DNA of 64,000 nt from Fistulifera solaris. Taxonomy: Eukaryota > Bacillariophyta > Bacillariophyceae > Naviculales > Stauroneidaceae. The stretch is taken from the NCBI GenBank assembly GCA_030295235.1, contig AP026147.1, positions 1 through 64,000 of the forward strand, in the 5' to 3' direction. Within the stretch, counting starts at the first letter, position 1, and every line of letters starts with the position of its first letter. The translations under genes and the position numbers were made by a program. Positions 5,431 through 53,751 of the stretch are shown piece by piece. Under the pieces are notes generated by a model, which saw only the letters and a program-made list of their open reading frames with translations, was not told where the DNA came from and did no database searches.

Positions 5431-6853
5431 TTATTGAATGGACACCTCATTATTTGACGGCGGCAGCGAAAGTATACGCAAACAGTGCTCATGATCCATT
5501 TTATGACCCCAACCACCAGATACTTGTTTCGGTCGAACGGTATGATTCACGCGGACGGGTCCATACACGGCCGTCGCATGAAACACCGATAACGGCGCAG
5601 TAGGTGTTCCCATCAGTATGTGTTCGTGCATACCTCTATCTAAACCAATGTGACGAACTTGACTACGACTGGGAAAGAGCATGACATGCGGCAAGCTCTC
5701 TTGCAGTGTCAACTGCACCAGGGTCCAATCCCAATTGGATTCGTCCATCGTGCAGTAATCTGGTGCAGCACGAACAATTGCTTGATAGATGTCACGATGC
5801 ATCGTCATGGGACCGGTTTGAAAAGCGTGTGCATAAAACAAATGATCGGGCAAAACAACGGGCTCTTCGGCTATGCCACCATTGGTCGGGTCCAGAGCGA
5901 CACCCAGAAACGGCGTTTCGACCGAGTATTCCTCAATGGCTTGCATTCCTTGTTGAATCGTTTCATAGACGGTCGGCGCCACAATGTAATCTTCCTCCAG
6001 GAAAAAGAAGGTATCGTATTTGTTGAGTGTCTCGCTGGTGAAAGTTTCTTGCAGCAACCACGTGAAATGATGCTTGCAGCATGTAATTTCCGCTGTACGT
6101 AGATTGCCGTATGAATCTCCAAGGTCCGGCGTCGTCACTTTCATCGGAAAATCGTTGGGATGATCGGCGCACGCGTACGGATGAATCCAAACTTGCAGCA
6201 ACGGGAACTCTGTTCGCAGGCTCTCCAAATATTGCAATACATCTTCAATGTGTCCATCCACCGAAACAATGAGCGGAACCGTCCGCCGTGGGAAATCCGA
6301 TTCCATTAACGAAGCGATTGATTGTTGTAAGTACTCCAGCCGATTGTAAGCCATTACTACAAAGGGTACCGGAACAGAAGACGCCATGTCAAAGGATTTC
6401 GAAATAGGCCGTTGTTTGTAGGGTAATGCCGGACGATGTGCCCGTATGAAATCCAATTGCTCTTGAATGGCTGTGCCATTTGTGATCGACAATGGTAAGA
6501 TACTGCTTTTCAGTTTGGATGGTGACTTTTTTGGTGGCGCTGGTTGCAGTTGAGGTGCCGTTGGTGACGTGAACTGTTTTGTGGTGGATGTCGTCGGCGA
6601 TGCAACACTCGATACAGGGGGGAGCATATAACCGAAGCTGTCTTGTCGTAGAGGACGATGGAACTGAGACCAGATACATTAGCAGTATTGAAAGACTTCC
6701 GAAAACAGAGAGTGAAACGGTCAGAATGTGGCCGTAGGTGATTCGCATTCTCGGTTTTTGAACTCGTTTTCGTCGCAACGTCGGATGGCTGTTACCGTTG
6801 TTGCCGTCTCCACTTTGTGAATGAGAGCAGCTGCGTCTCTTCGGGAAATCCAT
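5431..6853 (-). CDS. MGAT2: Alpha-1,6-mannosyl-glycoprotein 2-beta-N-acetylglucosaminyltransferase (GnT-II, family GT16)
   Basis: Golgi enzyme that adds the second GlcNAc to the alpha-1,6 mannose arm of N-glycans. The catalytic domain shows the family marks: VPFVVMAYNRLEYLQQS at its start, IVSVDGH, the metal-binding FFFLEEDYIVAP, the MGAT2-type NWDWTL, and a late HIGLDRGMHEH. A membrane anchor expected for a type II Golgi enzyme (about 23 hydrophobic residues after a basic tail RRKRVQKPRMR) lies upstream in another frame, starting at ATG 6853. The two frames meet at a run of six G on the plus strand (6617-6622), and one fewer base gives a continuous protein of about 473 residues. An unusually placed short intron is the alternative. 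The gene is divergent from the phosphatase gene that starts at 7277. Confidence 0.88.
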
Positions 6854-10042: not shown

Positions 10043-11260
10043 TCAATGTTTGTGCGCTAGTTCTTGCTCGTCCCGAAACGCTTGTAAAATATAGCGCCCC
10101 GCTGATTGTGTTTCCTCCTGTTGATTTTTACAAGGATCCATCATCCAATCTTTCACGTAAGAAGAGAAATGTGGAAGTCTAACAATGTGACTCGATTCCG
10201 GTGCGGCTAGAAAGTAGTTACGAATCCATACCGACGAACTTCTCGCTAAGCGCATGAGTTCAAAGCGCACACGACGATGCTCACAAATATTTATTCGCGT
10301 TACGTCACTTGATGCGCTATTTGTCAACGATGAAGGTCGCTTTTGTTGATTGAGTATCGGAATCTTTGAAGACAACGGCGTCGATAAGCCGAGAAAATCA
10401 GTCAACGCCTGTGACACCAGCCCCGGATGATCCTCTAATTCCCTAATCTCATAAATGAAAATTGGATTGGAGACGCGTATTGTTGATTCTTCGATAGCGG
10501 TAGTAGTATTTGGTGGCTCTAAATGAGCCCCTCGATACATGCGTCGTTCGAATTCTGTCACAATGTGAGGCTGCTTCGTTTTTCCCAATTGCCGCAAAAA
10601 CAAGGCAAACTCTCCCTTGTATGTACAAGTATTCCGCGCCGAAGCCACACAGGCTCCAACCAATTCATCCGGAGGCGGCAAAGTAGTCCTCGAAAGAGGC
10701 GAACGTTGTTGTTGTAGCCGGAAATTGTACAAACTTGCAAACCAATAAACGGGATGTCGAACACCGACGATCAACTTGGCGTGAGGAAAATACTGAGTGA
10801 GATATTGTAAAACGTGCGGTAATGTCACGTCGACCGGTGATTTGTAGCCTTTGAGTTTATTGGAAGGCAACTGCGTGAGCTTTTCGATCAGTTGGTCGGG
10901 CTGATGATGCATGAGGTCAAAATTTTCGACAGGTAAAACGGCAATCTCGGGATGCGTTTGCAACCATTTCAAGACGGACGTCGTTCCGCATTTTCCGAAT
11001 CCTATAATAGCGAATTGTAGTAAATGATCCGTGTGATTGTTAAATGATTTGTTGATGATTTTGTTGTTTTGACGAGAAAGATATTTATCATGGGCTGGAG
11101 AATGCCGTTCACTCGACACACGATACAGGAAAAGGGAATTGAGAAAGAAGGACGAGAATAACAGACATGCGGTAAAGAGACTAAAAAGAACAGTCCTAGG
11201 AAGACGTTCGGGTCGTCGTCTTATTCTACTTGTTGTTTTCAATCGTTCACACAACATCAT
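10043..11260 (-). CDS. Golgi-type sulfotransferase, type II membrane protein
   Basis: Probably transfers sulfate from PAPS to a carbohydrate in the Golgi lumen. It has 405 residues. A basic cytoplasmic tail (RIRRRPERLPR) is followed by one membrane segment (about residues 24-48). The 5'-phosphosulfate loop reads FGKCGTTSVLKWLQTHPEI (from about residue 92) and the 3'-phosphate-binding strand VGVRHPVYWFASLYNFR follows (about 165-182). Several NxS/T sites lie in the luminal stem. The acceptor cannot be read from sequence. The gene converges with the phosphatase gene, the stop codons being only about 80 bp apart. Two adjacent ATGs open the frame at 11260. Confidence 0.85.
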   Translation of the reverse strand: MMLCERLKTTSRIRRRPERLPRTVLFSLFTACLLFSSFFLNSLFLYRVSSERHSPAHDKYLSRQNNKIINKSFNNHTDHLLQFAIIGFGKCGTTSVLKWLQTHPEIAVLPVENFDLMHHQPDQLIEKLTQLPSNKLKGYKSPVDVTLPHVLQYLTQYFPHAKLIVGVRHPVYWFASLYNFRLQQQRSPLSRTTLPPPDELVGACVASARNTCTYKGEFALFLRQLGKTKQPHIVTEFERRMYRGAHLEPPNTTTAIEESTIRVSNPIFIYEIRELEDHPGLVSQALTDFLGLSTPLSSKIPILNQQKRPSSLTNSASSDVTRINICEHRRVRFELMRLARSSSVWIRNYFLAAPESSHIVRLPHFSSYVKDWMMDPCKNQQEETQSAGRYILQAFRDEQELAHKH

Positions 11261-15248: not shown

Positions 15249-17933
15249 ATGATCTACTCGAACCTCTTTTTACTTTCATTGCTTCTTTGTGTCGTCTCTG
15301 CACAGGCAGACGAAATAATACAATTAGTCAATGAGCCGTGTGTCAACTGGGAAGCCACGGCAGCGGCGTATCAAGAGGCGTTTGCGGAATGGCAAGAACC
15401 GGAATGTTACACGTTCACTTATACGTTTTTGGGGTTTTCCGTCGGAGAACCTGGCGGTGTCACACGCACCGTGCGCAATGGAACCGCGTTAGAACCAGAC
15501 GACGATCAGCCTTTTGGCACTCTGATGGATGTTTGGAAATTAATTGAGGAGCAGTGCATTCAAAATTGCCCGGAAAATGGAGCTCATACGTGTGATATTG
15601 AATATACGACACGTGAGGACGGCAATCTTGTATATCCGGCTTTCGTTAGCATCAATCCGGATGCTTTGCTTATGGATGAAGAATTAATTTACCGTATCCA
15701 AGATGTACGGACTTTGGATTGCGAGGAACTTGAAACGGAAGAGGGAGAAGATGTAGCAATCAAGGCTGATGTCTGCGTGAACTACGAAACCGTCAAGACG
15801 AATTTGGAGGCGGCTTTGCTTCAGTGGGAGAATCGCACCCGTAATTGCTACGACTTTACCATTGAACGCGTTGGGCGCGTGACCGAAGACTTTCGCGGAC
15901 CTTATCAAATTGCTGTGCAAGAGGGTAAAGTTGTGGAAATAGTCAGTGCGACCTCACAACCTGACATGAATCGAAGCTTATCGGATTGGTTACAGGAAAT
16001 TCAGACCATGTGCGTGGATCGCTGTCGAGCTGACAATGATGAAGAGCCTTATTACGATTGCACAATTGATTATGACGAGACAGTGGGATACCCGACGTAT
16101 TTTGTTTTTGATCCTGACCAATTCATTATCGATGAGGAGCTCTATTACAGAATCACAAATTTTTCGAGTTGCGAAGAAGAATTTGATGACATTTCGAATT
16201 CCGCAGTTTGTATTGATTACGAAACTGTCAAAACAGACTATGCTGCGGCGATCGAAAAATGGAATTTGGTCGATAACTGTTACGACTACGTCATCGAGCG
16301 ACAGGGTCGTATTTTAGATGACTTCCGTGGTCCTTTTGAAGTGCAAGTGCGGGATGGAGAGCCGCAGGTTATGAATATGCCTAACAACAGCGATGGTGCT
16401 GATAGACCGAACATGATGTTCACATTATCGGATTGGATGGCGGAAATCGACGAGCACTGCGTGGCGGGTTGTGAACTTGCAAGCAACAAAGATGCGTATT
16501 ATTATTGCTCTTTACAATACGATTCATTGTGGGGATTTCCAACATCGATCTTCTTTGACCCCGATGAAAATGTCGCTGACGAAGAGATTTACTATACTGT
16601 ATCCAATTTCACACCTTGCGAAAGGGGAGCAGTTGCCGAAACGGGAGATAACGAAACGTCTAATTGTACGCATCAGTCGGATGATGCTTACGAGTTCGAG
16701 GCGGCGTATGCAAAACTAGAGACATTGTTGACAGACAATCCCTGTTATGATTTCACGTACGTCGTGACTGGGTTCTTGTATCCGCCACCGCAGCCCGTGA
16801 CGGTTCGCTTTCGCGACGAGTCGACCTCTAGTCTAGGCTCCGATGATGAGTTCGCCTCTTTGATGGAGGTGATGACCTTCTACAGGAAAACGTGTTTTCC
16901 GTGCAACGATACGGTTCGACCGTTTGCTTGCAGCATTACATACGACGATCTTGGACTTCCTGAGAATTTGTGGATTGATTACGTTGAGATGCTGGCGGAT
17001 GAAGAGATGGGTTACACCATTAGCAACGTAACGTTTGTACCGTGCTCAGAAGACCCTTCTCAGCAAATTTGTGACCCTGGGTGGAGAGACGCCAAGGACA
17101 AGTGGGCGAGTCCTGCGTGTTACGACTATACCATTCGGAGGGTTGGAGAAATTCCTATGGAACGAGAAGGACCATTCGTTGTGAAAGTGAGGGATAACAA
17201 AGTGATCAATGGTACGGCGATGTCCGTCAACATGACTGTTGACGATCTATTAGCTTTGGTGGAAGAAAAGTGCATTGTTGGGTGCCCCGATACGGAGGCC
17301 TTCCAGTGTACGAATACGTATGATGCGGAGTTCGGCTTTCCAACTCAAATAAGCATTGACTATGATGAACTAATGGCTGACGAAGAAGAGATTTACGTCA
17401 TTACTAACTTTATTGCTGTCACGTGTAATTCCGGGCACGAGGACGATGGTGCTGTGACTGTGTGTCGAGAGTGGGAGCGCCTGAGAACGGAGGTCGAGTT
17501 GATCAAAGACAACTGGAAAGATCCGCCTTGTTACCAATACACAATGAAAAGAAACAACGAGTCGACAATTACGGTTCACGTGCGAAACTTCACGGTCGCA
17601 TCGCCGAAAGCGGACAGCGTTGAAGATGCTTCTTGGATACCCGTTACATTTGATGAGTTTCTTAGTGAAATTCGTGCTTCATGTATTGATGGATGTCCAT
17701 CCATGGGAGATGCAAACTGCAGTTTTGATAGTAAAGGGGAAGACTTCATGGGCAGCTGGGTGATTACTACAAAAGCATCGACAACCAATTTTGCGATTTC
17801 CGATTTTGAAGTCGTTTCATGTGACAAGAAAATAGTTACAATTGCTGAAGATACACCGTCGTCAGCAGCGGATGCCAAAGTCTCCTTCGGTATCGGGCTT
17901 TTTGTTACGGTTGTCTTTCTTTCCTTTATTTGA
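15249..17933 (+). CDS. Secreted six-module DUF6174-like surface protein
   Basis: An intact 894-residue frame, the largest member of the cluster. A signal peptide (MIYSNLFLLSLLLCVVSAQA) leads six tandem modules that begin with Cys near residues 35, 177, 322, 475, 612 and 740. Each module has a paired start (C-x2-W-E or C-x2-Y-E, then W...C-Y-x-F/Y), a variable middle with VRDG-like strands, a second Cys pair (CIQNCP, CIVGCPD), and a C-terminal YD..xGYPT..FDPD...DEE-x-YY-x-ITNF-x-x-C. The last part strongly recalls bacterial and algal DUF6174 proteins. Module 6 is shortened. Many N-x-S/T sites fit a glycosylated secreted protein. The C-terminal 15 residues are hydrophobic after a small-residue spacer, consistent with a GPI anchor. 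Function is unknown; a cell-wall or surface role is inferred. Confidence 0.9.
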   Translation: MIYSNLFLLSLLLCVVSAQADEIIQLVNEPCVNWEATAAAYQEAFAEWQEPECYTFTYTFLGFSVGEPGGVTRTVRNGTALEPDDDQPFGTLMDVWKLIEEQCIQNCPENGAHTCDIEYTTREDGNLVYPAFVSINPDALLMDEELIYRIQDVRTLDCEELETEEGEDVAIKADVCVNYETVKTNLEAALLQWENRTRNCYDFTIERVGRVTEDFRGPYQIAVQEGKVVEIVSATSQPDMNRSLSDWLQEIQTMCVDRCRADNDEEPYYDCTIDYDETVGYPTYFVFDPDQFIIDEELYYRITNFSSCEEEFDDISNSAVCIDYETVKTDYAAAIEKWNLVDNCYDYVIERQGRILDDFRGPFEVQVRDGEPQVMNMPNNSDGADRPNMMFTLSDWMAEIDEHCVAGCELASNKDAYYYCSLQYDSLWGFPTSIFFDPDENVADEEIYYTVSNFTPCERGAVAETGDNETSNCTHQSDDAYEFEAAYAKLETLLTDNPCYDFTYVVTGFLYPPPQPVTVRFRDESTSSLGSDDEFASLMEVMTFYRKTCFPCNDTVRPFACSITYDDLGLPENLWIDYVEMLADEEMGYTISNVTFVPCSEDPSQQICDPGWRDAKDKWASPACYDYTIRRVGEIPMEREGPFVVKVRDNKVINGTAMSVNMTVDDLLALVEEKCIVGCPDTEAFQCTNTYDAEFGFPTQISIDYDELMADEEEIYVITNFIAVTCNSGHEDDGAVTVCREWERLRTEVELIKDNWKDPPCYQYTMKRNNESTITVHVRNFTVASPKADSVEDASWIPVTFDEFLSEIRASCIDGCPSMGDANCSFDSKGEDFMGSWVITTKASTTNFAISDFEVVSCDKKIVTIAEDTPSSAADAKVSFGIGLFVTVVFLSFI

Positions 17934-18641
17934 GATCATGGATATTGAAGCAGGATTGCAACATACTGGCTGACGCCGCTGCTTTGAAGCAGTTCATCTC
18001 GCATTCCTTTCTCATGGGTTTTTGAAAGCTATTAGTTTGCAAAAGGGCAGTGAGGTTATGGGCAAGCGTTGACAGCACACATCATCAATAATTATCGCGC
18101 AAGTGCCACGTCAAGATGCGTCTTATATTGCACAATCCAGCAGTGAACGTCGTCTTTGACGCTCGGATAATAAGAGCCCCCGAAAGAAGAGCCGTCTTGC
18201 ATGATACATGTTAAAATGGACGAATTGGCTTGAATTTCCAATTGTTTTTCATGATCAATTTGTGAGGCGCAAAATTTGTGGGTTGTGAGAGTTTCTTTTC
18301 GGCTGTTCCAAACAGTTATGCCCTGGCAACAGCTTCTAGCTAAAAATCTTGTTCAGGACACGTTTCAACAGAAACGACCTACTGTCCAATAGAGGATCAG
18401 AATTTGATACCGAATCACGACTCCGACAAACGTCATGTTTTAGTAGTATCTTATTGCCATGAAATTCATTCACGACTCCAACAGAAAGGCGTTACTTCCG
18501 AATTGCGCCAGCTGCACCGTTGCGTCTTCGCGCCACGTGAAAAACGCTGGCAAATTTTGCAAACGCCAAATTGCCGACCACGCACACCTTCTCATTCAAC
18601 TTATTTTCATCGTCTCAAACGATTTCACTATCAGCGACATT
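17934..18641. other. Intergenic and 5' flank of the 18642 gene
   Basis: No coding region is recognised. The last 220 bp (from about 18420) resemble the 5' flank of the 20327 gene (from about 20097): both hold GTAGTATCTTAT, a GCGTTACTTCCGA word and CGCTGGCAAATT in the same order. The duplication therefore included promoter sequence. Confidence 0.6.
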
Positions 18642-19817
18642 ATGCTCATCAACGTCGTCTCAGGTTTCGTTCTCGCAGCTCTAGCGGCACAGGCTCAAGA
18701 TGATATTGCGCATGAACCGTGCGTCGATTGGGAGTCGAATGCGGTGGCCTATGAAGAGGCGTTCGCCAAGTGGACGGCACCTTCCTGCTACACTTTCACT
18801 TACGCGTATACAATTGCTGAGATGATCAAAGGACAATCACAAAAGCGTTTTGTGAAAAGTGGCCAGCCTGTACAGATGAACTATCCGTATCCCGAGTTCG
18901 AAACTATCGACGAATTTTGGACACTTATTCAAGAGAACTGCATTCAAGATTGTCCGACCATTGGAGCACATTCGTGCAATATTGAGTATACAATGAGCGA
19001 CGACGGCAGCTTCATGTTTCCTTCATCCATCGAAATCGATTTCAATTCCTCGTCTGACGCCAGCAAGGACACTCACATTTACAGTCTTTTCAATGTGAGC
19101 TCGGTCGATTGTTCCGGAATCCAAGAAATGGAGAACGTGCTCTGTGTCGATTGGGAGTCGACTGCTGCTGCATATGAAGCCGCCTACGAACAGTGGACAG
19201 CCCCTTCCTGCTACAGTTTCACCTACTCGTTTTCCAACTCTACAATCAACAATCTAGAAACAAAGCGCTCCGTCCGCGATGGAGTGTCGTTGCTGAGTGG
19301 GGACGACGGGGAACTGCATACACTCGACGACTTTTGGAGCTTCATTCTAACCAAATGCATCCAAGGTTGTCCCACCAGCGGCGCGTATTCGTGCAGAGTT
19401 AACTACTTCATGAATGAGGAAGGCGGTTTCATGTATCCTATCGACTTGTACATCGATATGGACGGTAGAATCTTTGGCACTGATACGTACAGGATTTACG
19501 ATCTTCGGATTGGCGAATGTCCCGACGATTCATCAGTCGAAGGCGAAGAAGAAGGACAGGGGAATGAAGAAACCTTAATCGAAGAAGAGGGAAATGGAGA
19601 GGGTAATGAAGAAGGCGCGGCAGAAGAGGGACAAGAAGCACAAGGTAATGAAGAAAGCGCAGCAGAAGAGGGTGGAGAAGCACAAGGCAATGAAGAAGCA
19701 ACAGTGGAAGAGGAAGGAGACATGCAAGGCAATCCAGAAACTAGTGACAGTTTGAAAGCGAAAAGCATTGTGCCGTTTCTGCTGATATTATCACTTTCAA
19801 TAGCGGTTTTAAATTAA
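18642..19817 (+). CDS. Secreted two-module DUF6174-like protein with acidic repeat tail
   Basis: ATG 18642 is chosen because it begins a signal peptide (MLINVVSGFVLAALAAQAQ); the frame is open 183 bp further upstream without one. Two modules follow, CVDWESNAVAYEEAF...W..PSCYTFTY and CVDWESTAAAYEAAY...W..PSCYSFTY, each with the central CIQDCP or CIQGCP and IEY or VNY strand and a YPIDLYIDMDG-type end. Then comes a low-complexity stretch of about 70 residues made of E-E-G-x-E-A-Q-G-N-E repeats, and a hydrophobic C-terminus typical of a GPI signal. Bases 18792-19519 appear identical to 20895-21622 in the next gene, so duplication or gene conversion was recent. Confidence 0.9.
   Translation: MLINVVSGFVLAALAAQAQDDIAHEPCVDWESNAVAYEEAFAKWTAPSCYTFTYAYTIAEMIKGQSQKRFVKSGQPVQMNYPYPEFETIDEFWTLIQENCIQDCPTIGAHSCNIEYTMSDDGSFMFPSSIEIDFNSSSDASKDTHIYSLFNVSSVDCSGIQEMENVLCVDWESTAAAYEAAYEQWTAPSCYSFTYSFSNSTINNLETKRSVRDGVSLLSGDDGELHTLDDFWSFILTKCIQGCPTSGAYSCRVNYFMNEEGGFMYPIDLYIDMDGRIFGTDTYRIYDLRIGECPDDSSVEGEEEGQGNEETLIEEEGNGEGNEEGAAEEGQEAQGNEESAAEEGGEAQGNEEATVEEEGDMQGNPETSDSLKAKSIVPFLLILSLSIAVLN
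18792..19519. repeat. 728-bp near-perfect repeat, copy 1
   Basis: Matches 20895-21622 at a constant offset of 2103 bp, with no difference seen on line-by-line reading. It covers most of module 1 and all of module 2. Identity ends at T19520 versus C21623, just after the RIGEC codons, where the two genes take up different tails. Confidence 0.9.
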
Positions 19818-20326
19818 TAGCGAATCTATCTACTTCAGAGTCGCCGCAGGCAGATAAGAGCGACGAGTGCTCCTTCCTAGCCAGTCCGAATCCTCATTTT
19901 TGCAGGGGAGCTCCGACAAGGTTACATACCACCGCCATGTCATCGACAGAGCTCTAGACTATGAGTTTGCAAAATAATAGGAGTAGTCCGTAATGACTCG
20001 GAACCGCCAACGACGGCCCCTTTAAGAAAAGAATCATGTTCCATCCACGTTTCAACACAAATCCGTTGAGCAAATTAGAGACTCAGAAACATCCTACGGA
20101 GTCACGACTCCGCCGAAAACGATTTTGGAGTAGTATCTTATCACTGGGACAAGCACTCACGACTCGAAACGAATGCGTTACTTCCGAGCACGAGCTGTTG
20201 GCCACGCGACAAACGCTGGCAAATTGCACGAGGTCAACATCACAACATCCACATCGTCTCATTTTTTTCTACTCCGCCGCGAACTGCACCGATTTCATTC
20301 TACCAATAGAAAATTCAGCCCAACGA
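19818..20326. other. Intergenic, duplicated 5' flank of the 20327 gene
   Basis: No gene is recognised. From about 20097 the sequence is related to 18420-18640, upstream of the preceding paralogue. Confidence 0.55.
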
Positions 20327-22160
20327 ATGTTCATCAACATCGCCCTCTTCTTTCTAATTGCTACAATCGTGCGGGCACAAAACGACGCTGCTTCCGCAGC
20401 ATGCGTCAATTGGGAGTCTACGGCCGCGGATTATGACCAGGCCTTTGCACTGTGGGGAGGCTCCCACGTGCTACACGTTCACATACAAGATCAACCAGAT
20501 GATGCCAACGGCACAAATCACCCGCACAGTAAAGAACGGCAAGCCGGTCGGAGAGAGCGATGCCTCGACGTACAAGACCATCGACGAGTTCTGGAATTCT
20601 ATTGAAGCTTATTGCATCCGCGACTGTCCCACCGACGGTGCCCATATGTGTGATATCCAGTATGAGAGGAACGAAATAAATGGTTTCATGTACCCAGCGT
20701 CCATCTTCATCGATTTCGACGCCGCAGTCTACGACGAGGAGCGAAGCATTACCATCACGGATGTACGTTCCATCGCTTGTTCCGAGGAAGAAACTGAAGA
20801 AGAAAATGTCGCGCACGAACCTTGCGTCAATTGGGAATCGAACACTGCGGCTTATGAAAAGGCAATCGCAAAGTGGACGTCTCCCTCGTGCTATACTTTC
20901 ACTTACGCGTATACAATTGCTGAGATGATCAAAGGACAATCACAAAAGCGTTTTGTGAAAAGTGGCCAGCCTGTACAGATGAACTATCCGTATCCCGAGT
21001 TCGAAACTATCGACGAATTTTGGACACTTATTCAAGAGAACTGCATTCAAGATTGTCCGACCATTGGAGCACATTCGTGCAATATTGAGTATACAATGAG
21101 CGACGACGGCAGCTTCATGTTTCCTTCATCCATCGAAATCGATTTCAATTCCTCGTCTGACGCCAGCAAGGACACTCACATTTACAGTCTTTTCAATGTG
21201 AGCTCGGTCGATTGTTCCGGAATCCAAGAAATGGAGAACGTGCTCTGTGTCGATTGGGAGTCGACTGCTGCTGCATATGAAGCCGCCTACGAACAGTGGA
21301 CAGCCCCTTCCTGCTACAGTTTCACCTACTCGTTTTCCAACTCTACAATCAACAATCTAGAAACAAAGCGCTCCGTCCGCGATGGAGTGTCGTTGCTGAG
21401 TGGGGACGACGGGGAACTGCATACACTCGACGACTTTTGGAGCTTCATTCTAACCAAATGCATCCAAGGTTGTCCCACCAGCGGCGCGTATTCGTGCAGA
21501 GTTAACTACTTCATGAATGAGGAAGGCGGTTTCATGTATCCTATCGACTTGTACATCGATATGGACGGTAGAATCTTTGGCACTGATACGTACAGGATTT
21601 ACGATCTTCGGATTGGCGAATGCCCCGAAGTCGAAGAAGAAGAAGTCGCCGATGAGGAGCTCAACGAACCGTGTGTGGATTGGGAGACGACTGCCGAAGC
21701 GTATGAAGATGCTTGGGCGCAATGGAAAGCTCCGTCTTGCTACACATTTGGCTTTTCGTTTGACGGAATCACACCTTCCGCGACGCGCACCGTCGTCCAT
21801 GGCGAAGCGTTGCTCGAAGACGAATCGTCACCGTTTTCGGAATTGCGGACCCTTGAAGACTTTTGGGGCTTGATTCAAAGGGAATGCATTCAAGACTGTC
21901 CTGTTAGTGGAGCTCATTCGTGTGAAATCGAGTACGCAATGCATGAAAAAGGCGAGTTTATGTTCCCCGAAGAAATCGACGTCACCCGAAACTCGTTTGA
22001 TGGTTTCCTTGCTCGAATTGACAATGTCCAGGTCATTCCTTGTCCGGGTGAAAGAGAAGAAAGCGAAGAGAAGAGCAGCAAAAGGAGAAGAAGCCGAAGA
22101 ATAAGGGAAAGAAAAGCAACTCGCTCCGAACGAATAAGAAAACCCATCCGAAATAAATGA
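20327..22160 (+). CDS. Secreted four-module DUF6174-like protein with basic tail
   Basis: ATG 20327 starts a signal peptide (MFINIALFFLIATIVRAQ). Module 1 reads ACVNWESTAADYDQAFALW, then the frame shifts at GGGG 20454-20457. With one G fewer it continues EAPTCYTFTYKIN, exactly as in paralogues, so the inferred protein has about 610 residues. Modules 2 and 3 are largely the block shared with the 18642 gene. Module 4 begins CVDWETTAEAYEDAW and matches the decayed copy at 25367-26002. Unlike the upstream members, the protein ends in a Lys/Arg/Glu-rich tail (EREESEEKSSKRRRSRR and on) with no hydrophobic end, so it is probably soluble or wall-bound rather than GPI-anchored. Confidence 0.82.
20895..21622. 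repeat. 728-bp near-perfect repeat, copy 2
   Basis: Second copy of 18792-19519. It lies in frame within the 20327 gene as modules 2 and 3. Confidence 0.9.
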
Positions 22161-43545: not shown

Positions 43546-46454
43546 TTATGAGTGTTCACCTATAACGATTTCGTTCGCCTTCACTACCAATTCCTTTAGC
43601 GTCTCATTCAAACGCTGAAGCTTACGATTTCTCTCCGTCTGCTCCATGGCTTCCTCTTGTAAGGTTTCCAGCGAATTGCGCTCTCGCTCCCGCTTCCGTC
43701 GTGAAAGAATTATTGTCATTCGTCGCTTCCTCTCGACTTTGTCCGACTCGTCCTCGTGCAAAAGAAGCTTATTGCGTGGAATCAGGTATCTCGCTGAAAG
43801 TTCTTCTTCCCTACTATTCGTAAACAGACCCCATTCGTATCGGACTCGTAGCTCTTGCCACTTCACAAAATCGTCAAAACCTAATCGACCGAACAGTGCC
43901 TTGGGTAAGCTTTCTCTTAAATATCCATAGTCTAAGAGATTTTGCAATAAATCTTCTCTTGAAGTACCGACATGTGTCTTCACAGCAGGCGCCCCCAACA
44001 CGTGTTGAAAATCCAATGCACTCTTTGTCGTGTTCAATCTAGCCTCCATCGAGCTTTCAACAAAAACGTCCGCTGGGCATAAGTCCAAACCCAGAATGTG
44101 CACTTGATGAACGCGAACAGGCATTACAGGCAGTATTGTATCCACAAAGTGCTCTTTGAAAACGCGGTCGAAGCTTGGGTCTGACCAAAAGTATAACAGA
44201 TTGAACCCTTTCATTTGAGATATCACATTCTCAGACATGATCGAAAGCATGTAAAATTTGCATCGCGCTCGCGATAAGCTGGAGGTGGACTTTTGTAACT
44301 TCGTACCATCGCAATATAGTACGCTTTCCCCGCTTTTGACACATGGTAATTGCATAAGGTAGCCGGTCTGGAGGACGGTAACATCTTTTCGCTCGAGAGC
44401 GCCCTCAAAAGATTGATTGAGTGGGAGAAAGGCGCGATTGCCAAACAAGTCCTTTCGTACTTCCCAGTACTTTGCGTACATGCTGGCAGCCTTCGTAGCG
44501 TTGCAGCCCGTAAATCGCAGAAAACTTTCCCAAAGACTTTCTTGCTCAGACAGCTCGGGTGATTTGTCGAGCGCTTCCAGGTATGCAACTTTGTTTTCAT
44601 CGGGGATGAGTGCCAGAGCAGTCCGCATGGCTTTGATTGCCGAAGATGTTACCTCTACATTTGTAACCGAAACATCACCCTCTTCCAGCCTCTGGCTCGC
44701 AAGGAACTCCATAGGCCCATCCTGTCCACCCGCTTTCTTCGGAAGACCTTCCCTAGTCACGCCCAGTGCCTCAAACGTTCGATGCATCTCCTCCTGGGCC
44801 TCGACACCGACCGAAAAATGTACATTTTGATCTCCACCGAACAAAGTTGTGAACATCCGGACAAGAAATTTACAACAGAATTCAGTAAAGACGCTCCACC
44901 CGGACGGACAAAAGATAATCTGAGTAGTAATGGGTCTAAGTGGGAAGCTTGCTTTCAAGATCTCTCCGACTCGTACAACATTTGCTCTCCATCGTGAATC
45001 GATGACAGGGATCTGGATGTGAGAGACCATTGGTATCCCAATAAATTCACCTCGATTCGAAAAAGACTCTTTCAGCACTTTTGACGCAACGTAGTACAGT
45101 ACTTTAACGCGCATTTTGAGATCCATTACGGGATCCGAGCTCATCTGTAGAAGAGGCTCTCCGCACCATACCGGACGACCACATTTACTATTCCGCGGCA
45201 GAAACTGCGATCCTACCTCCAACGCCATTTCCCCGTCTGGGCCCATAGCTCCATTTATTGTCATCGGCAGAAATGCTCGGTCTTCAAACATTTCAACACG
45301 GTACTTCCAATAATTGCAAAGTCGTATAGCCTTAAAGCGATATACATTTTAGCATGACAGATACATAAGCACACAGGCAGATGTAACGTACCGCAGCCGC
45401 AAAATTAAAATCATCAAAATCAAGAAATCTCAAAGGCGGTGATTCTGTTTCTACCAGCTCGGATGCTCGCCGAGTGGCTTCGACGTACGCAGCTTTCTCG
45501 CTTTCGGGAAGGAGACAAATGGCTTCATGAAGGCATTTCAAAGCGCAGAACCTGTCATCCGACTTAGGATTCACAATCGATGAAGTAGTGGCTGTTGCAA
45601 CAAATCCAAATTTTGCTAAAAAGCGAGGAAATTCGACACTCGATTGATAGCTACCGCCCAGCGCAGGAGGCAAGGCACTGGCAAGTATACCGTGTGGTAT
45701 CAACTTCACCAACGCTTGCGCTGGAGTCCCACAGTGATGAACCCCAAAATGACAAGGGATAACTTGCCACATTCGGAAAAAGAGAAAAGAATTCTCGACA
45801 AACCCTAAATGAGCGTCAGCATCCAAAACGAGATGAATTGCTTTGAGATGAGCCGGAAACGCCTTCGTGCTAAGTTCCATGGTCTTTGAAGCAACCCTAC
45901 TTTCGGTCCGTTTCGAGGTCCTAAAGTGAATTACAAACTGATAGCCCTTTCCGCGTAAGGCGTTGACTCGATGTCGCGATAGAAGCTGTAGAATGAAAAA
46001 GTCGCGGCGTATTGCTGACTCGATCGAGAAATCAACGCCATCGGGCTCTAGACTGCGATCAACAACCACTGTATCTTCCGCGGTGAGCTGAAAACTTCCC
46101 GTAGAAAAAAAGCCTCAAGTCTTCTCCTGTGAGAGCGCCATTTCCGCTTAAATCTAAGACTGGCAGAAAAGCCCGTTCCCCAAATAATTCCTTGCGCTTT
46201 TCCCAGTAGGTGACAATACGCGTGGCTGCATTCCAGATGTCGAAATCCGCAAAGATAAGAAACTGCATCGGATCGGACTCGGTCTTGACAAGTTGAGGGC
46301 ATCTTACGAGTGCTTCTCGGTAAGCCGTTTGTTGTTGAAGAGGTATTTGAGCGAGGGAGTCTTGAAGTTGCTCAAGGGCGCGGCGATGCAATACCACGCT
46401 GGAAGCAGCTGTTTCCGCTTCCGTCGCGGCAAGTATCTGCGAATAATCAAACAT
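43546..46454 (-). CDS. Triple Sec14/CRAL-TRIO-like protein with C-terminal bZIP-like region, paralogue A
   Basis: Inferred about 948 residues. Exons are 46454-45392 and 45330-43546, with a 61-nt intron (donor GTACGT). Three repeated modules begin with a helical CRAL-TRIO-N-like signature: NAATRIVTYWEKRKELFGER, an AIRLCNYW...FEDRAFLP form across the intron, and ATKAASMYAKYWEVRKDLFG. Each is followed by a Sec14-like part (FPAHLKAIHLVLDAD in the first, MPVRVHQVHILGLD in the last). The C-terminal 65 residues have a basic region RKRRMTIILSRRKRERER and Leu/Asn spacing like a bZIP zipper. The frame breaks at seven A (46105-46111), and one base fewer restores homology with paralogue B. A lipid-responsive DNA-binding protein is an inference. 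Confidence 0.75.
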
Positions 46455-46886
46455 CCTCTTTTTAAAAACGAATGAAAATCTTCAATCGCGTTGATTGTTA
46501 GCAGCAATTGGCTCACACACAAAAAAGGACAAAATTTTAGAAAACGGCATAAAAATAAGACGGGTGCAGAAACGCGAACGCATGATGTCTCTCGCTTGAG
46601 ATGCTTCCGGCCTTGTGTCTCGCAAAAGTATCAGATCAGTCACGCTGAGTCGGTCCCGCCTATGTTGCCTGTACTCGCGAGATTTGAATACTGCGAACTA
46701 GATCCATGTTTTCTGCTATAGCTGAAAAGACACAATTTCGTCGACGCATATAAAAATAGCAGAACGGTGGCCAAAGAGAAACAAACAAGCATCGCAAACT
46801 AGGACACCCGTATTGCCCTAATCACTACTTCTCAAATCCTAGACTTTACAGATTTTTCTAAAAGGCCACAATGTGGATCACTTCCA
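46455..46886. other. Intergenic region between tandem paralogues
   Basis: About 430 bp holding the promoter of paralogue A. No gene is recognised. Confidence 0.5.
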
Positions 46887-49873
46887 TCACATAGGTGTGT
46901 TTTTGATGAGAATGTTCGCTTCTTCCACCAGCTTCTGTAGCACTTCGTTCTGACGCTGAAGCTTACGATGTCTCTCCGTATGCTCCATGGCTTCCTCTTG
47001 CAAGCTTTCCAAAGACATGCGCTCCCGCTCTCGCTTCCTTCGCGAAAGAATGATGGTCATCCGTCGTTTCCTCTCGACCTTTTCCGCGTCTTCCTCATGC
47101 AAAATAAGCTTGTTCCGCGGAATTAGATATCTAGAAGCTTGCTCTTGTTCCCTGCTGTTCGTGAATAGACCCCATTCGTAGCGGACACGTAGCTCTTGCC
47201 ACTTGACAAAGTCACCAAAGCCGAGTTCACCAAACACTGTCTTGGGTAGACCTTCCTTCGTATAACCGTGACTGACCAGCCCTTGCAACAGATCTTCTCT
47301 CGAAGTACCTATACGTGCATCGACTGAGGACAAACCTGCAGAACGCTGAAAATCCAAGATACGCATCGTCTCCTTCAACCTAGCCTCCACCGAATGGCCC
47401 TCATCCTGATTTGCGTCCCTTGAATTCATATTTAGTGCCAAGACATGAATCTGATTGACGCGAATTGGCATCACCGGTAATATTGTTTCGAGAAAGTGAT
47501 CCTTGAACACACGATCAAAGCTAGGATCGGACAAGAAGTACAAAAGGTTGAACCCTCTCGTCTGCGACAAAGGATTCTCGGCCATGATGGAAAGCATGTA
47601 AAATTTACATCGGGCACGTGATAAGCTCGATGACGACTTTTGCAGCTTTGTTCCGTCGCAATAAAGAACGCTCTCTCCACTTTCGACACACGGCAACTGC
47701 ATAAAGTACCCGGTTTGTAACACGGCAACATCTTTGCGCTCAAGAGCGCCTTCGAATGTTTGATTGAGTGGAAGGAAGGCGCGATCACCAAATAGTTCCT
47801 TTCGTACTTCCCAATGCTTTGCGTACATTGTGGCAGCTTTTGTAGCATCACAGTCTGTAAATCGTAGGAAGCATTCCCAGAGACTCTCTTGTTCAGCAAC
47901 GTGTGGGCATTTGTTGACTGCTTCTAAATAAGCAATCTTGCCTTCATTTGGAATATGAGACAGGGCAGTGTGCATGGCTTTTATTGCTGACTTGGTAATT
48001 TCTGTTGCGACTGAGCTTGTATTCCCTTTTTTCCTCCCGTCGTTGGCGAGAAAGGAAATCCGCAGGTCCATGTTGTCCGCCAACTTTTTTAGGTAGAGCT
48101 TCCTTCGCGATGCCTATCGCTTCAAACTTTTGTTGCAGCTGCTCCAGCGATTGAGAATCGGAATAAATATGAATATTTTCAGGTTCGCCGAGCAAACTCG
48201 AGTACATTCGAAGAAATACATTGATGACAAGGTTTGAGAGGAGGCCTCCAGACGATTTGTAGATCGCCTGTGTACCTGCAGGTCGAATAGGGAAGCACTC
48301 CTTGAACAATTTCCCTGACCGAATAAGATTTGCTATCCATCTCGGATCTATGAGAGGGATTTCAATTTCGCTGATCAACGGTATCCCTATCACTCCGTTA
48401 CGAACCGAGTGTGGATTCTTTAAAATCTTTGAGGCAATGTAAAAGTACATCTTTGCACGCATTTTGAAATCCACTTCAGGATCAGAGTCCATTTTCAAAA
48501 ATGATTCGGCACACCAGACCGTGCGACCATATTTATCATTCTGTAGCAAGTAATGCACTCCTGCCCCCGCAGCTTTCTCTCCGTCCGGACCCATTGCTCC
48601 CTCGAGTGTCATTGGCAGCAGGGCACGATCGCCGAATACATCGAAACGGTGTCTCCAATAATTACAGAGTCGTGTCGCCTTGCAACGCCGTCGTAAAGAC
48701 GTGAGATACACTGAAAGCAGAGTGGTAGCACAAAGCCGTCATAACAACGTACCGCAGCCCAAGCGTCATAATCACTAAACTCCATAAACAACGAAGGAGG
48801 CGACTCGTCTTCCACTAAATCCGGTGCTTGTTGTACTGCTTGCAGATAAGCAGCTTTATCCGTGGCGGGAAGGAGTTCCATAGCTTCTTGGAACGACTTC
48901 ATATGACGAGCACTGATTTTCCCTCCCGCGAATAAATCCTGTTCCGAATGTATACTCGACGTTTGCGAAACGCTGGATGCGTCGCACCTTGCCGCGTTCT
49001 CAGTCCCCGATCGCGACGTAAACCCAAGCTTGGTCAGGAATCGGACAAAATCGACGCCCGGATTGTACGACCCGCCCAAGGAAAGAGGCAACGCACTCGG
49101 CAGTAGACCATGGGGTACAAGCTTCATCAAAGCTAACTCGGGTGTCTCACAGTGGTGTAAAAATAGGTAGCTCGAAGATATTCCCCACAACTTGCACAGG
49201 AACGATACGGCATTTTGTATGAATCCCAGCTGAAAGTCAGCTGCAAAGACCATATGAACCGCTTTGATGCGAATGGGAAAGGCCGTGGTGCAAATTTCGG
49301 ACGATTTGGCCGCGACCCTTTGATCCATCGATTTGAAACGTTTATATCGCACCACAAACTTGCAACCCTGCATCGCGGTGACTCGATGTCGGGCTAACAG
49401 CTGATACAGGAATACATTGCGGCGTATTTGCGACTCGATGGAGACTTCTGCACTTTCGGGCTCCAAGCTGCGATCGACGACCACCGTATCTTCCGCCGTG
49501 AGAAGGAAACTTCCCGTTACGATGAGCTGCACATCCTCCGCAGTCAAAGCGCCGTTTCCGCTCAAGTCTAAAAGAGGAAGAAAGGCTCGTTCTCCAAAGA
49601 CTTCCTTTCGCTTTTCCCAGTACGTTACTAAACGCTCGGCGGCACTCCAGACATTGAAGTCTGCAAAAGAAGAAACTGCATCGGATCGGACTCGGTCTCG
49701 ACGAGTTGGGGACATCTTATGAGTGCTTCTCGATAGGCTGTCTGTTGTTGAAGAGGTATTAATGCAAGAGAGTCACGAAGTTGTTCGAGAGCTCGACGCT
49801 GAAAGAAGAACCTTGAAACAGCCGCTTCCGCATCTTGGGAAGACTGTTGATTTTGCGTTGCTGGATAATACAT
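46887..49873 (-). CDS. Triple Sec14/CRAL-TRIO-like protein with C-terminal bZIP-like region, paralogue B
   Basis: Inferred about 970 residues from exons 49873-48753 and 48678-46887. The 74-nt intron sits at the same place as in paralogue A and has the same GTACGT donor. Modules start with SAAERLVTYWEKRKEVFGER, ATRLCNYWRHRFDVFGDRAL and ATKAATMYAKHWEVRKELFG. Sec14-like strands follow (FPIRIKAVHMVFAAD, MPIRVNQIHVLALN). The end has KRRMTIILSRRKRERER and a zipper-like LQRQNEVLQKLVEEANIL. Two frame breaks fall in AAAA 49665-49668 (one base short) and TTTTTT 48027-48032 (one base long). Paralogue A is continuous at both sites, so errors or recent lesions are likely. The copies are diverged throughout, so the duplication is old and the architecture has been kept. 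Confidence 0.75.
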
Positions 49874-51451: not shown

Positions 51452-53751
51452 ATGTTTCGGTCCTTGACGGTCGGCTTTCTTTACGGGTGGGGATCGCTCT
51501 GTGTCCTCGGCATTTATTCCGTCACTGCCTTGACCGTCGGATCTCAACAACAGCGTGTGACAAATTTGCGGAATCGCATCGAACGCATACGAACGACCCA
51601 GTTTAACTTTTTGTCGCAACAACTCGACAGCATGTGGTATTATTTGCAACATGATTTCGAAACGACCGGACAACTGTCGGAATTGGAAGACGCCATGTTG
51701 CAACAAGCACCGTTGGAGGTACTCGAACGCATGGCGTTGGTGCGTCCGAATGCTTTAGCGGCCATGGAGCAGCAGTTGCAAGAATTTGAGCAATTGGCTC
51801 CTTTGGTGATTATGTCGGATTTCATGACGTCTCTTCAGGATGTCAAACAACCACTTTCGACGAATGTGATGCCATCCGAAACAGCAGCAGCAACGACAAC
51901 GCCGTCTGCGAGTACATCGACGCCAGCAAATCCAAGAACAACAACGAAAAAGGTCCCTTCGTCCCTCGTTTTGGCCAATCTTCGTCGCGAGCAACAATCG
52001 AGCAATGAAACGGTCGTGGATATTTGTATTGTCGGTGCCGGATTGGGTGGTTTGTGTGCGGGTGCCATTTTGAATACATTGTACAAAAAACAGGTGGCGA
52101 TTTTCGAATCGCATTATGTAGCGGGGGTTGTGCGCATGCGTTTCCACGCCAAGTGGGCAACCTGCAATTTGTGATGGATTCGGGGCCAACGATTTTGACG
52201 GGATGCACTAGCAATAGTCGCGTCAATGCCTTGCAACAAGTGTTACAAGCCATCGATCAAACTGTGGAATGGATACCCTATCAATCGTGGGGAATGATTG
52301 AATCGCCGGGGACACCCAATGAACTTCGATGGAGTGTGCCTTTGGGAAAAGAAAAAATGATACAAGGACCGATTCTACAATTTGGAGGGGCGGCGGCTGT
52401 ACAAGAATACAAAGCGTTGCAAGAATTGTCCAAGTCGTTGACAGTCGGAGCCGAATTACCGGCCATGGCGATGCGACCGGGAAAAACAGCCCTAGTTCCG
52501 TTGTTGCGCTATTTGTCTACTACAACGAAACTGTTGAGTCAACCGATGGATCTGCTGACGGGGACTTTTGCACCGTACATGGACGGGCCACTGTTTACGG
52601 TCCAAAGTCCTTGGTTAAGGAATTGGCTCGATGCGTTGGCCTTTTCCTTGTCCGGCCTTCCCGCCAATCGCACAGCGGCGGCAGCCATGGCGGTTGTATT
52701 ACAGGATATGGAAACGTCGCAATTGGATTATCCGGTTGGTGGGATGGGAAGTATCGTCGATGCATTGGTTCGTGGAGTCGAACAGGGTTCGGCGGGCAGT
52801 AAAGTACATTTGCGTTCACCCGTCAAGTCGATTGATTGCAACGATATTGCCAGTCGTTTCGTCGGCGTCACACTGGAAAATGGACAACGTATACGAGCGC
52901 GACAAGGTGTCATCTGCAATGCGCCTCTCTGGAGTTTAGCGGAGTTCATTAAAGATCCTCGTGCTCTCCGTAAATTAAACAACAACCAAATATACAATTT
53001 ACCGGCATCCTCCGAGTCATCCTCGACGCTACCGCAACGACGCACATCATGGGTCAACAATCGTATCGTCGACCATCGCGATAACACGGCTACTATAGAC
53101 ACAGAATCGTTGCTACAAACATGCGAGACGGCGGAAATGACAGGCTCCTTCATGCATTTGCATTTGGCCTTGAATGCTTCAGGCCTAGATCTCGCCTCCC
53201 TTGAAGCACACTACACGGTGATGGATCGTGGTCTTGGTGGACACAATGCAACGGACGGTCCCACCGGAATTCTCAATATGATTGCTGTGTCTAATCCGTG
53301 TCGACTTGATCCGACCTTGGCACCACAAGGAACTATTGTTGTACATGCTTACGGAGCTGCCAATGAACCATACGAAATTTGGGAAGATATGGATCGGAAG
53401 TCGACCAAATATCGTATCTTAAAACAAAAACGCGCTGAGCCGCTTTGGCGAGCCGTCGAAAGTATCATTCCCGACGCACGTGAACGGGTTTTATTGGAAC
53501 TGATCGGTTCGCCACTGACCCACGAGCGCTTTTTACGACGTCCCGGCGGAACCTATGGGAGCGCTACGGAAGATTATCTGCCTAATGGCCTCACCAATTT
53601 CGAAAGCCTAGTTCTCGCGAATGACGGTGTATTTCCCGGTATTGGTGTTCCGGCCGTAGCGATCGCCGGAGCGAGTGCCGCGCATGCGTTTGTTACGATC
53701 GGAGAGCAGTGGTCTGTTCTCAACAAGTTGGAGCGAAAACAACAACGCTAG
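51452..53751 (+). CDS. FAD-dependent carotenoid isomerase/desaturase-like oxidoreductase
   Basis: Inferred 766 residues. A hydrophobic N-terminus (residues about 7-28) that could be a signal or anchor leads into a coiled-coil-like Gln/Glu-rich part. A Thr/Ala/Pro linker follows, then the FAD-binding Rossmann motif DICIVGAGLGGLCAGAIL. The catalytic part shows FVMDSGPTI soon after, and a C-terminal block GTYGSATEDYLPNG...FPGIGVPAVAIAGASAAH like plant and algal CRTISO and related phytoene-desaturase-type enzymes. The frame breaks at GGGGG 52123-52127; one extra G gives SHYVAGGCAHAFPRQVG, the expected family sequence. The substrate (carotenoid or another polyene) is not determined. The plastid location is inferred from the family. 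Confidence 0.82.

Follow-up and report, generated by a model that had tools for sequence, protein, structure and literature searches.

Tandem genes with three CRAL-TRIO modules and a bZIP-like tail in the diatom Fistulifera solaris, a possible lipid-gated regulator

Gene layout at the locus

The stretch analyzed here (the window) comprises the first 64,000 nucleotides of contig AP026147.1 of the diatom Fistulifera solaris (C34:1-64000; the genome amounts to 51.7 Mb in 61 contigs). It contains two tandem genes on the minus strand, gene 1 (46454 to 43546) and gene 2 (49873 to 46887), lying where an earlier note made from the sequence alone had placed them. Each codes for three homologous modules of the CRAL-TRIO (Sec14) family in a row, followed by a C-terminal tail that is predicted to be a basic-zipper helix and keeps the register of bZIP factors (Table 1). 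A matching tandem pair, gene 1' and gene 2', was found on C35 (L009), and since the compared genes are common to both contigs, C34 and C35 are treated here as homoeologous; Fistulifera has been described as a recognized allopolyploid (PMC12159174). All four copies come from one genome, and the predicted intron site can be read in their DNA sequences at the same place.

Table 1. Features of the two tandem genes, in window coordinates
Feature	Position	Strand	Description
Gene 1	43546..46454	-	Two exons; three CRAL-TRIO modules and basic-zipper tail; one frame-breaking insertion or deletion (indel), T run 46105-46111
Gene 1 exon 1, first part	46107..46454	-	ATG to frame break; N-lobe of module 1, YWEKRKELFGERAFLP
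Gene 1 exon 1, remainder	45392..46102	-	Lipid-binding lobe of module 1 (LPPALGG), then the beginning of the module 2 N-lobe
Gene 1 predicted intron	45331..45391	-	GTACGT...AG, phase 0, 61 bp
Gene 1 exon 2	43549..45330	-	Remainder of module 2, whole module 3 and tail; 594 amino acids, uninterrupted
Gene 1 module 3	43738..44658	-	CRAL-TRIO fold
Gene 1 bZIP-like tail	43549..43737	-	63 amino acids; Thr where the invariant Asn is expected
Gene 2	46887..49873	-	Tandem paralogue, same layout; frame-breaking indels at about 49665-49676 and about 48024-48036
Gene 2 exon 1 past first frame break	48753..49673	-	Module 1, then the beginning of the module 2 N-lobe
Gene 2 predicted intron	48679..48752	-	GTACGT...AG, phase 0, 74 bp
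Gene 2 module 2, intron to near second frame break	48037..48678	-	Leave-one-module-out hidden Markov model (HMM)
Gene 2 module 3	47079..48008	-	CRAL_TRIO_2 and leave-one-module-out HMM
Gene 2 bZIP-like tail	46890..47078	-	63 amino acids

Three CRAL-TRIO modules

The three repeats of each gene had been credited with the signature YWxxRxxxFGxRAxxP, which is strict in four of the six modules; the other two carry variants, YWKYRVEMFEDRAFLP at 45312 and HWEVRKELFGDRAFLP at 47816. A looser form of the signature hits exactly the six module sites in the six frames of the 64-kb window and has no match in 20 random 64-kb sequences drawn from a first-order Markov model. Both profile searches and the predicted fold, in which an N-lobe and a lipid-binding lobe are present, bear out the earlier assignment of these modules to the Sec14/CRAL-TRIO family.

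The strength of the assignment differs from module to module. It is firmly supported for module 3, for which the Pfam family CRAL_TRIO_2 is over its cut-off in genes 1, 2, and 2' (24.2 bits in gene 2, for a cut-off of 23), and well supported for module 1, which falls under that cut-off with expectation values (E) of 0.076 in gene 1 (open reading frame [ORF] 45332-46069) and 0.0054 in gene 2 (ORF 48609-49715). Module 2 found no Pfam match of its own in the exon translations and is supported as a family member through its homology to the other modules, its copy in gene 2 being detected by a leave-one-module-out HMM at E 3.8e-24; the corresponding value for module 3 plus tail of gene 2 is 5e-45. 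In the Protein Data Bank (PDB), a 25-row profile matches alpha-TTP (E 7.2e-6), and the seven sequences found by profile A1 at E<=1 are all CRALBP or alpha-TTP (best 0.032); profile A2, built from module 1 and its relatives alone, had no PDB match at E<=1, and NCBIfam returned no family for the three proteins searched. Residues 1-301 are those spanned by a fifth or more of the rows of the structure comparison, which thus says little about the tail. The modules are established by the fold evidence as pockets of the hydrophobic-ligand type, and they would be expected to bind lipids or other hydrophobic ligands.

Single-module CRAL-TRIO relatives, several of them in tandem, are found on C41 and C40 (L010, L011, L012, L013). 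Some of them have another C-terminal region with a Cys/His-rich stretch (CRHCAHLPRQ...ATYYPT...); the L012 piece (C41), which includes that stretch, gave no Pfam match at E<=0.1. In a benthic diatom, 40 CRAL-TRIO genes are counted among the clade-signature genes (PMC7335047).

A C-terminal helix in bZIP register

The string RKRRMTIILSRRKRERER, noted earlier for its zipper-like spacing, is present in both window genes. Searched against its own genome, the tail was recovered at four places, genes 1, 2, 1', and 2' (E<=1e-28), and the next of the eight scored candidates had an E of 1.2. In bZIP proteins the basic region is joined to the zipper without a gap, with the spacing N-x7-R-x9-L. The four tails all read T-x7-R-x9-L, the Arg being retained, and by our own reading of the register the d positions of the zipper are L, Q or H, L, L, and A. 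The predicted model places a single helix at residues 302-367 (the tail starts at residue 308), with block values of the predicted local distance difference test (pLDDT) that lie at 90-95 in most of the zipper half. When 19 bZIP stretches from the same genome, hand-chosen to omit second copies, were searched for the best gapless local match, all four tails had one and the same partner, L056 (C4), in the same register, with scores of 80 for gene 1, 64 for gene 2, 68 for gene 2', and 70 for gene 1'. Shuffle controls were made for genes 1 and 2'; the gene 1 score was reached by none of 1000 shuffles and by none of 1000 that preserved the basic block and the heptad class. The score of the comparison between profiles was reached by 0 of 400 full column shuffles, 5 of 400 heptad-preserving shuffles, and 6 of 200 shuffles confined to the zipper part.

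Several results weigh against a bZIP. The Pfam family bZIP_2 reached 8.3 and 10.4 bits in two of the three tails searched and was absent from the third (the cut-off is 22.3), and unrelated Pfam families matched the tails with similar or better E-values. No bZIP was found in the PDB at E<=10 with a single tail, whose sole three matches were designed helical proteins, nor in a second PDB search with the tail, which returned two resolvase sequences; a canonical bZIP of the same genome gave 49 matches at E<=10, among them Fos, Jun, CREB, and C/EBP (best E 0.0028). A bias-corrected HMM of own-genome bZIPs (19 training rows, one of them, L044, out of register) failed to part the tails from their shuffles, since under two controls the shuffles that matched the score numbered 47 and 153 of 2000 in gene 1, 63 and 189 in gene 2', and 682 and 706 in gene 2. 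The gapless score of gene 2' was reached by 2 of 1000 shuffles and 21 of 1000 heptad-preserving ones, and the 19 canonical stretches score 80-189 among themselves, so that gene 1 equals the poorest of them and the remaining three tails score less than any. The hhalign probability was 51% (P 1.5e-4) for an alignment of columns 15-59 whose start lies past the Thr and whose zipper is broken by a gap of seven residues. Shuffling confined to the basic part left the profile-profile score largely intact, 28 of 200 such shuffles reaching it. The block pLDDT of the basic half of the helix (55-84) is under that of the zipper half, and dN/dS (the ratio of nonsynonymous to synonymous substitution rates) between the paralogous genes 1 and 2' is higher in the tail (0.19, at a dS of 0.91) than in module 3 (0.087, at a saturated dS of 2.2). 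Finally, the invariant Asn of the basic region is Thr in the four tails, and it is Asn in all 32 own-genome bZIP stretches examined, a set (the best 30 of 103 PF00170 matches plus two) that favors canonical members.

Judging from the shuffle outcomes of the profile comparison, the likeness of the tail to bZIPs is carried mainly by the hinge and zipper. The earlier description of the region as bZIP-like holds for its register, helix, and zipper spacing, and fails at the Pfam thresholds, the PDB match, and the key Asn. Because two defining features, the Asn and a bZIP profile score above the curated cut-off, were looked for and not found, we do not claim that the tail belongs to the bZIP family; it is best read as a bZIP-derived dimerizing helix, and may work like one.

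Possible roles of the tail

Considering that all the firm domain evidence concerns a lipid-carrier fold, the proteins could quite conceivably be cytosolic lipid-transfer proteins, their modules carrying lipids between, for instance, endoplasmic reticulum, plastid, and oil bodies, and their tail being a membrane-binding, coiled-coil dimerizing anchor with no part in transcription. The missing above-threshold Pfam and PDB matches of the tail and the designed helical proteins found in their place agree with such an anchor, and a hydrophobic MTIIL run in the basic stretch, together with the loss of the Asn, would fit membrane contact at least equally well. However, the four tails align gaplessly to a canonical bZIP with basic region, hinge, and zipper in register, their profile match outscores nearly all heptad-preserving shuffles, and a generic membrane anchor would have no reason to retain bZIP spacing.

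The 20-residue basic stretch is identical at the protein level in the four copies, with six to eight silent nucleotide differences in five of the six pairs and none between genes 1' and 2'. In the latter pair, two adjoining blocks of 60 nt covering the basic-hinge part show 97 and 100% identity, as against 50-85% in the remaining blocks of module 3 and tail. This tract, at about L009:1654-1863 and L009:4980-5189, looks like local gene conversion between 1' and 2', and the same block comparison revealed none between genes 1 and 2. The four tails are hence not four independent witnesses.

This conservation bears on another possibility, namely that a former bZIP persists as a zipper alone, pairing with canonical bZIPs and either blocking their DNA binding or tethering them at cytosolic lipid membranes until a ligand releases them. 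The similarity is greatest in hinge and zipper, the Asn is gone from all copies while zipper spacing and Arg are kept, and for non-Asn bZIPs the possibilities suggested in part of the literature include binding as heterodimers only and blocking of canonical bZIPs (PMC11267843). On the other hand, a basic stretch kept identical exceeds the constraint that a pure zipper decoy would need, even if the conversion-like tract on C35 explains part of that identity, and we regard this possibility as rather improbable.

Over the membrane-anchored lipid carrier we favor, tentatively and at less than even confidence, a ligand-controlled regulator with a transcriptional role that works with or against canonical bZIPs. 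The zipper would form homodimers, or heterodimers with canonical bZIPs, and a ligand in one or more of the three pockets would shift the location of the dimer (membrane or lipid droplet versus nucleus) or bare the basic helix; either change might then adjust transcription. Ligand binding, dimerization, nuclear location, contact with DNA or bZIPs, and control by lipids are all steps that we infer. Since the basic region has lost the base-reading Asn, the nuclear role that we consider likeliest would be to bind with altered specificity or to inhibit canonical bZIPs as their partner, and not to activate genes unaided; with Thr at this position, sequence-specific DNA binding by the protein on its own is doubtful, if still conceivable.

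Frame breaks and neighboring genes

Single-base indels within or beside short homopolymers break the reading frame of gene 1 once and that of gene 2 twice (positions counted by hand). Gene 1' has at least two frame breaks, three by our own reading, and none occurs in gene 2', whose exons encode 373 and 596 amino acids. Such breaks could mean that the genes are pseudogenes in decay and that their apparent domain combination has lost its importance, which we consider very improbable, given that gene 2' is intact and that the homoeologues differ with dS of 0.41-0.66 and dN/dS of 0.11-0.15, also downstream of the breaks (eight segments, some overlapping, three from gene 1, where module 1 was left out, and five from gene 2). 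The genes are under purifying selection. Programmed frameshifting was rejected as the cause, because the break sites differ among the copies and gene 2' has none.

Frame shifts are also found around the locus, which speaks against pseudogenes as well. In a comparison of 14 neighboring ORFs with those parts of C35 that had been fetched, four shifted frame within an otherwise contiguous match, two had no match on the fetched C35 sequence, and an ORF that we take to be MetX-like matched by its last 34 residues only. The four are those that we presume, from sequence, to be glycosyltransferase-like, sulfotransferase-like, and carotenoid-isomerase-like, plus the ORF at 15249; they lie at 5431-6627, 10043-11260, 15249-17933, and 52174-53751. 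This suggests that single-base indels are frequent in this assembly. Small assembly errors are the simplest explanation for the frame breaks, recent mutation being a possible other.

Elsewhere in the window, the ORFs at 18459-19817 and 20433-22160 have a long, near-identical, Cys-containing stretch in common, and the best match of both is a single C35 region (about 16.3-17.8 kb), so there seems to be an extra tandem copy on C34 at 18459-22160. Between 28001 and 32000, G+C drops to 0.38-0.40, with GC skews of -0.11 and -0.24. A tRNA scan of the window with the bacterial code found none.

Comparison with known systems

Among the titles and abstract beginnings listed in searches of the open-licence literature, we found no description of a protein that joins CRAL-TRIO or Sec14 to a bZIP. 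In viral contigs, module 3 plus tail had no pattern match and the tail alignment had 68, none of them confirmed; the 141 pattern matches of the tail alignment in the bacterial and archaeal contig collection were not confirmed either, and these collections have no bearing on diatom orthologues. With hydrophobic-ligand pockets and a helix of transcription-factor type in one protein, these genes would be direct candidates for a sensor of lipid state in a diatom, a species reportedly studied for its oil accumulation.

Known CRAL-TRIO/Sec14 proteins such as alpha-TTP, CRALBP, and Sec14p share the fold of the modules, whereas here three modules stand in tandem before a basic-zipper tail, an arrangement found in none of the matches listed. 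With bZIP factors the tail shares a basic stretch followed by a leucine-type zipper in canonical register, a predicted continuous helix, and the Arg, and it differs from them in staying under the Pfam threshold and being fused to lipid modules. Oomycete bZIPs with a substituted Asn are the nearest guide to how the tail may work; such non-Asn variants occur in related stramenopiles. In Phytophthora infestans, Cys, Val, or Tyr takes the place of the Asn in some bZIPs (PMC11267843), and a classification by the residue there (C-R, R-R, V-R, N-K, and "other") includes a few non-N-R candidates in nonoomycete species (PMC4046829); Thr is not among the residues named in the parts of these papers drawn on here. 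The comparison also tempers our preferred reading of a bZIP-related regulator, since on DNA-binding arrays motifs were obtained from one of seven Cys and one of five Val bZIPs of P. infestans versus 11 of 17 with Asn (PMC11267843).

The nearest systems in logic are the aureochromes and the START-containing HD-ZIP factors. Plant class IV HD-ZIP proteins also combine a lipid-binding domain with a leucine-zipper DNA-binding part in one protein, theirs being START and a homeodomain, not CRAL-TRIO and bZIP (PMC9889695); neither START nor homeodomain had a Pfam match in our exon translations. Aureochromes of stramenopile algae, as far as described in the sources consulted, resemble the proteins in lineage and in joining a sensor domain to a bZIP. 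Their sensor is a flavin-binding LOV domain that responds to light, whereas our proteins have three lipid pockets on the N-terminal side of a degenerate bZIP, and the Pfam families matched by the exon translations include no LOV or PAS domain. Within the literature searched, ours would be a sensor-plus-zipper protein whose sensor fold is undescribed in that role. That it is a lipid-gated diatom transcription regulator, with three CRAL-TRIO pockets and a bZIP bearing Thr for the base-reading Asn, and so a lipid-sensing counterpart of the aureochromes, is possible and for now doubtful; if true, the bZIPs that sense light in this lineage would be joined by a sensor of lipids.
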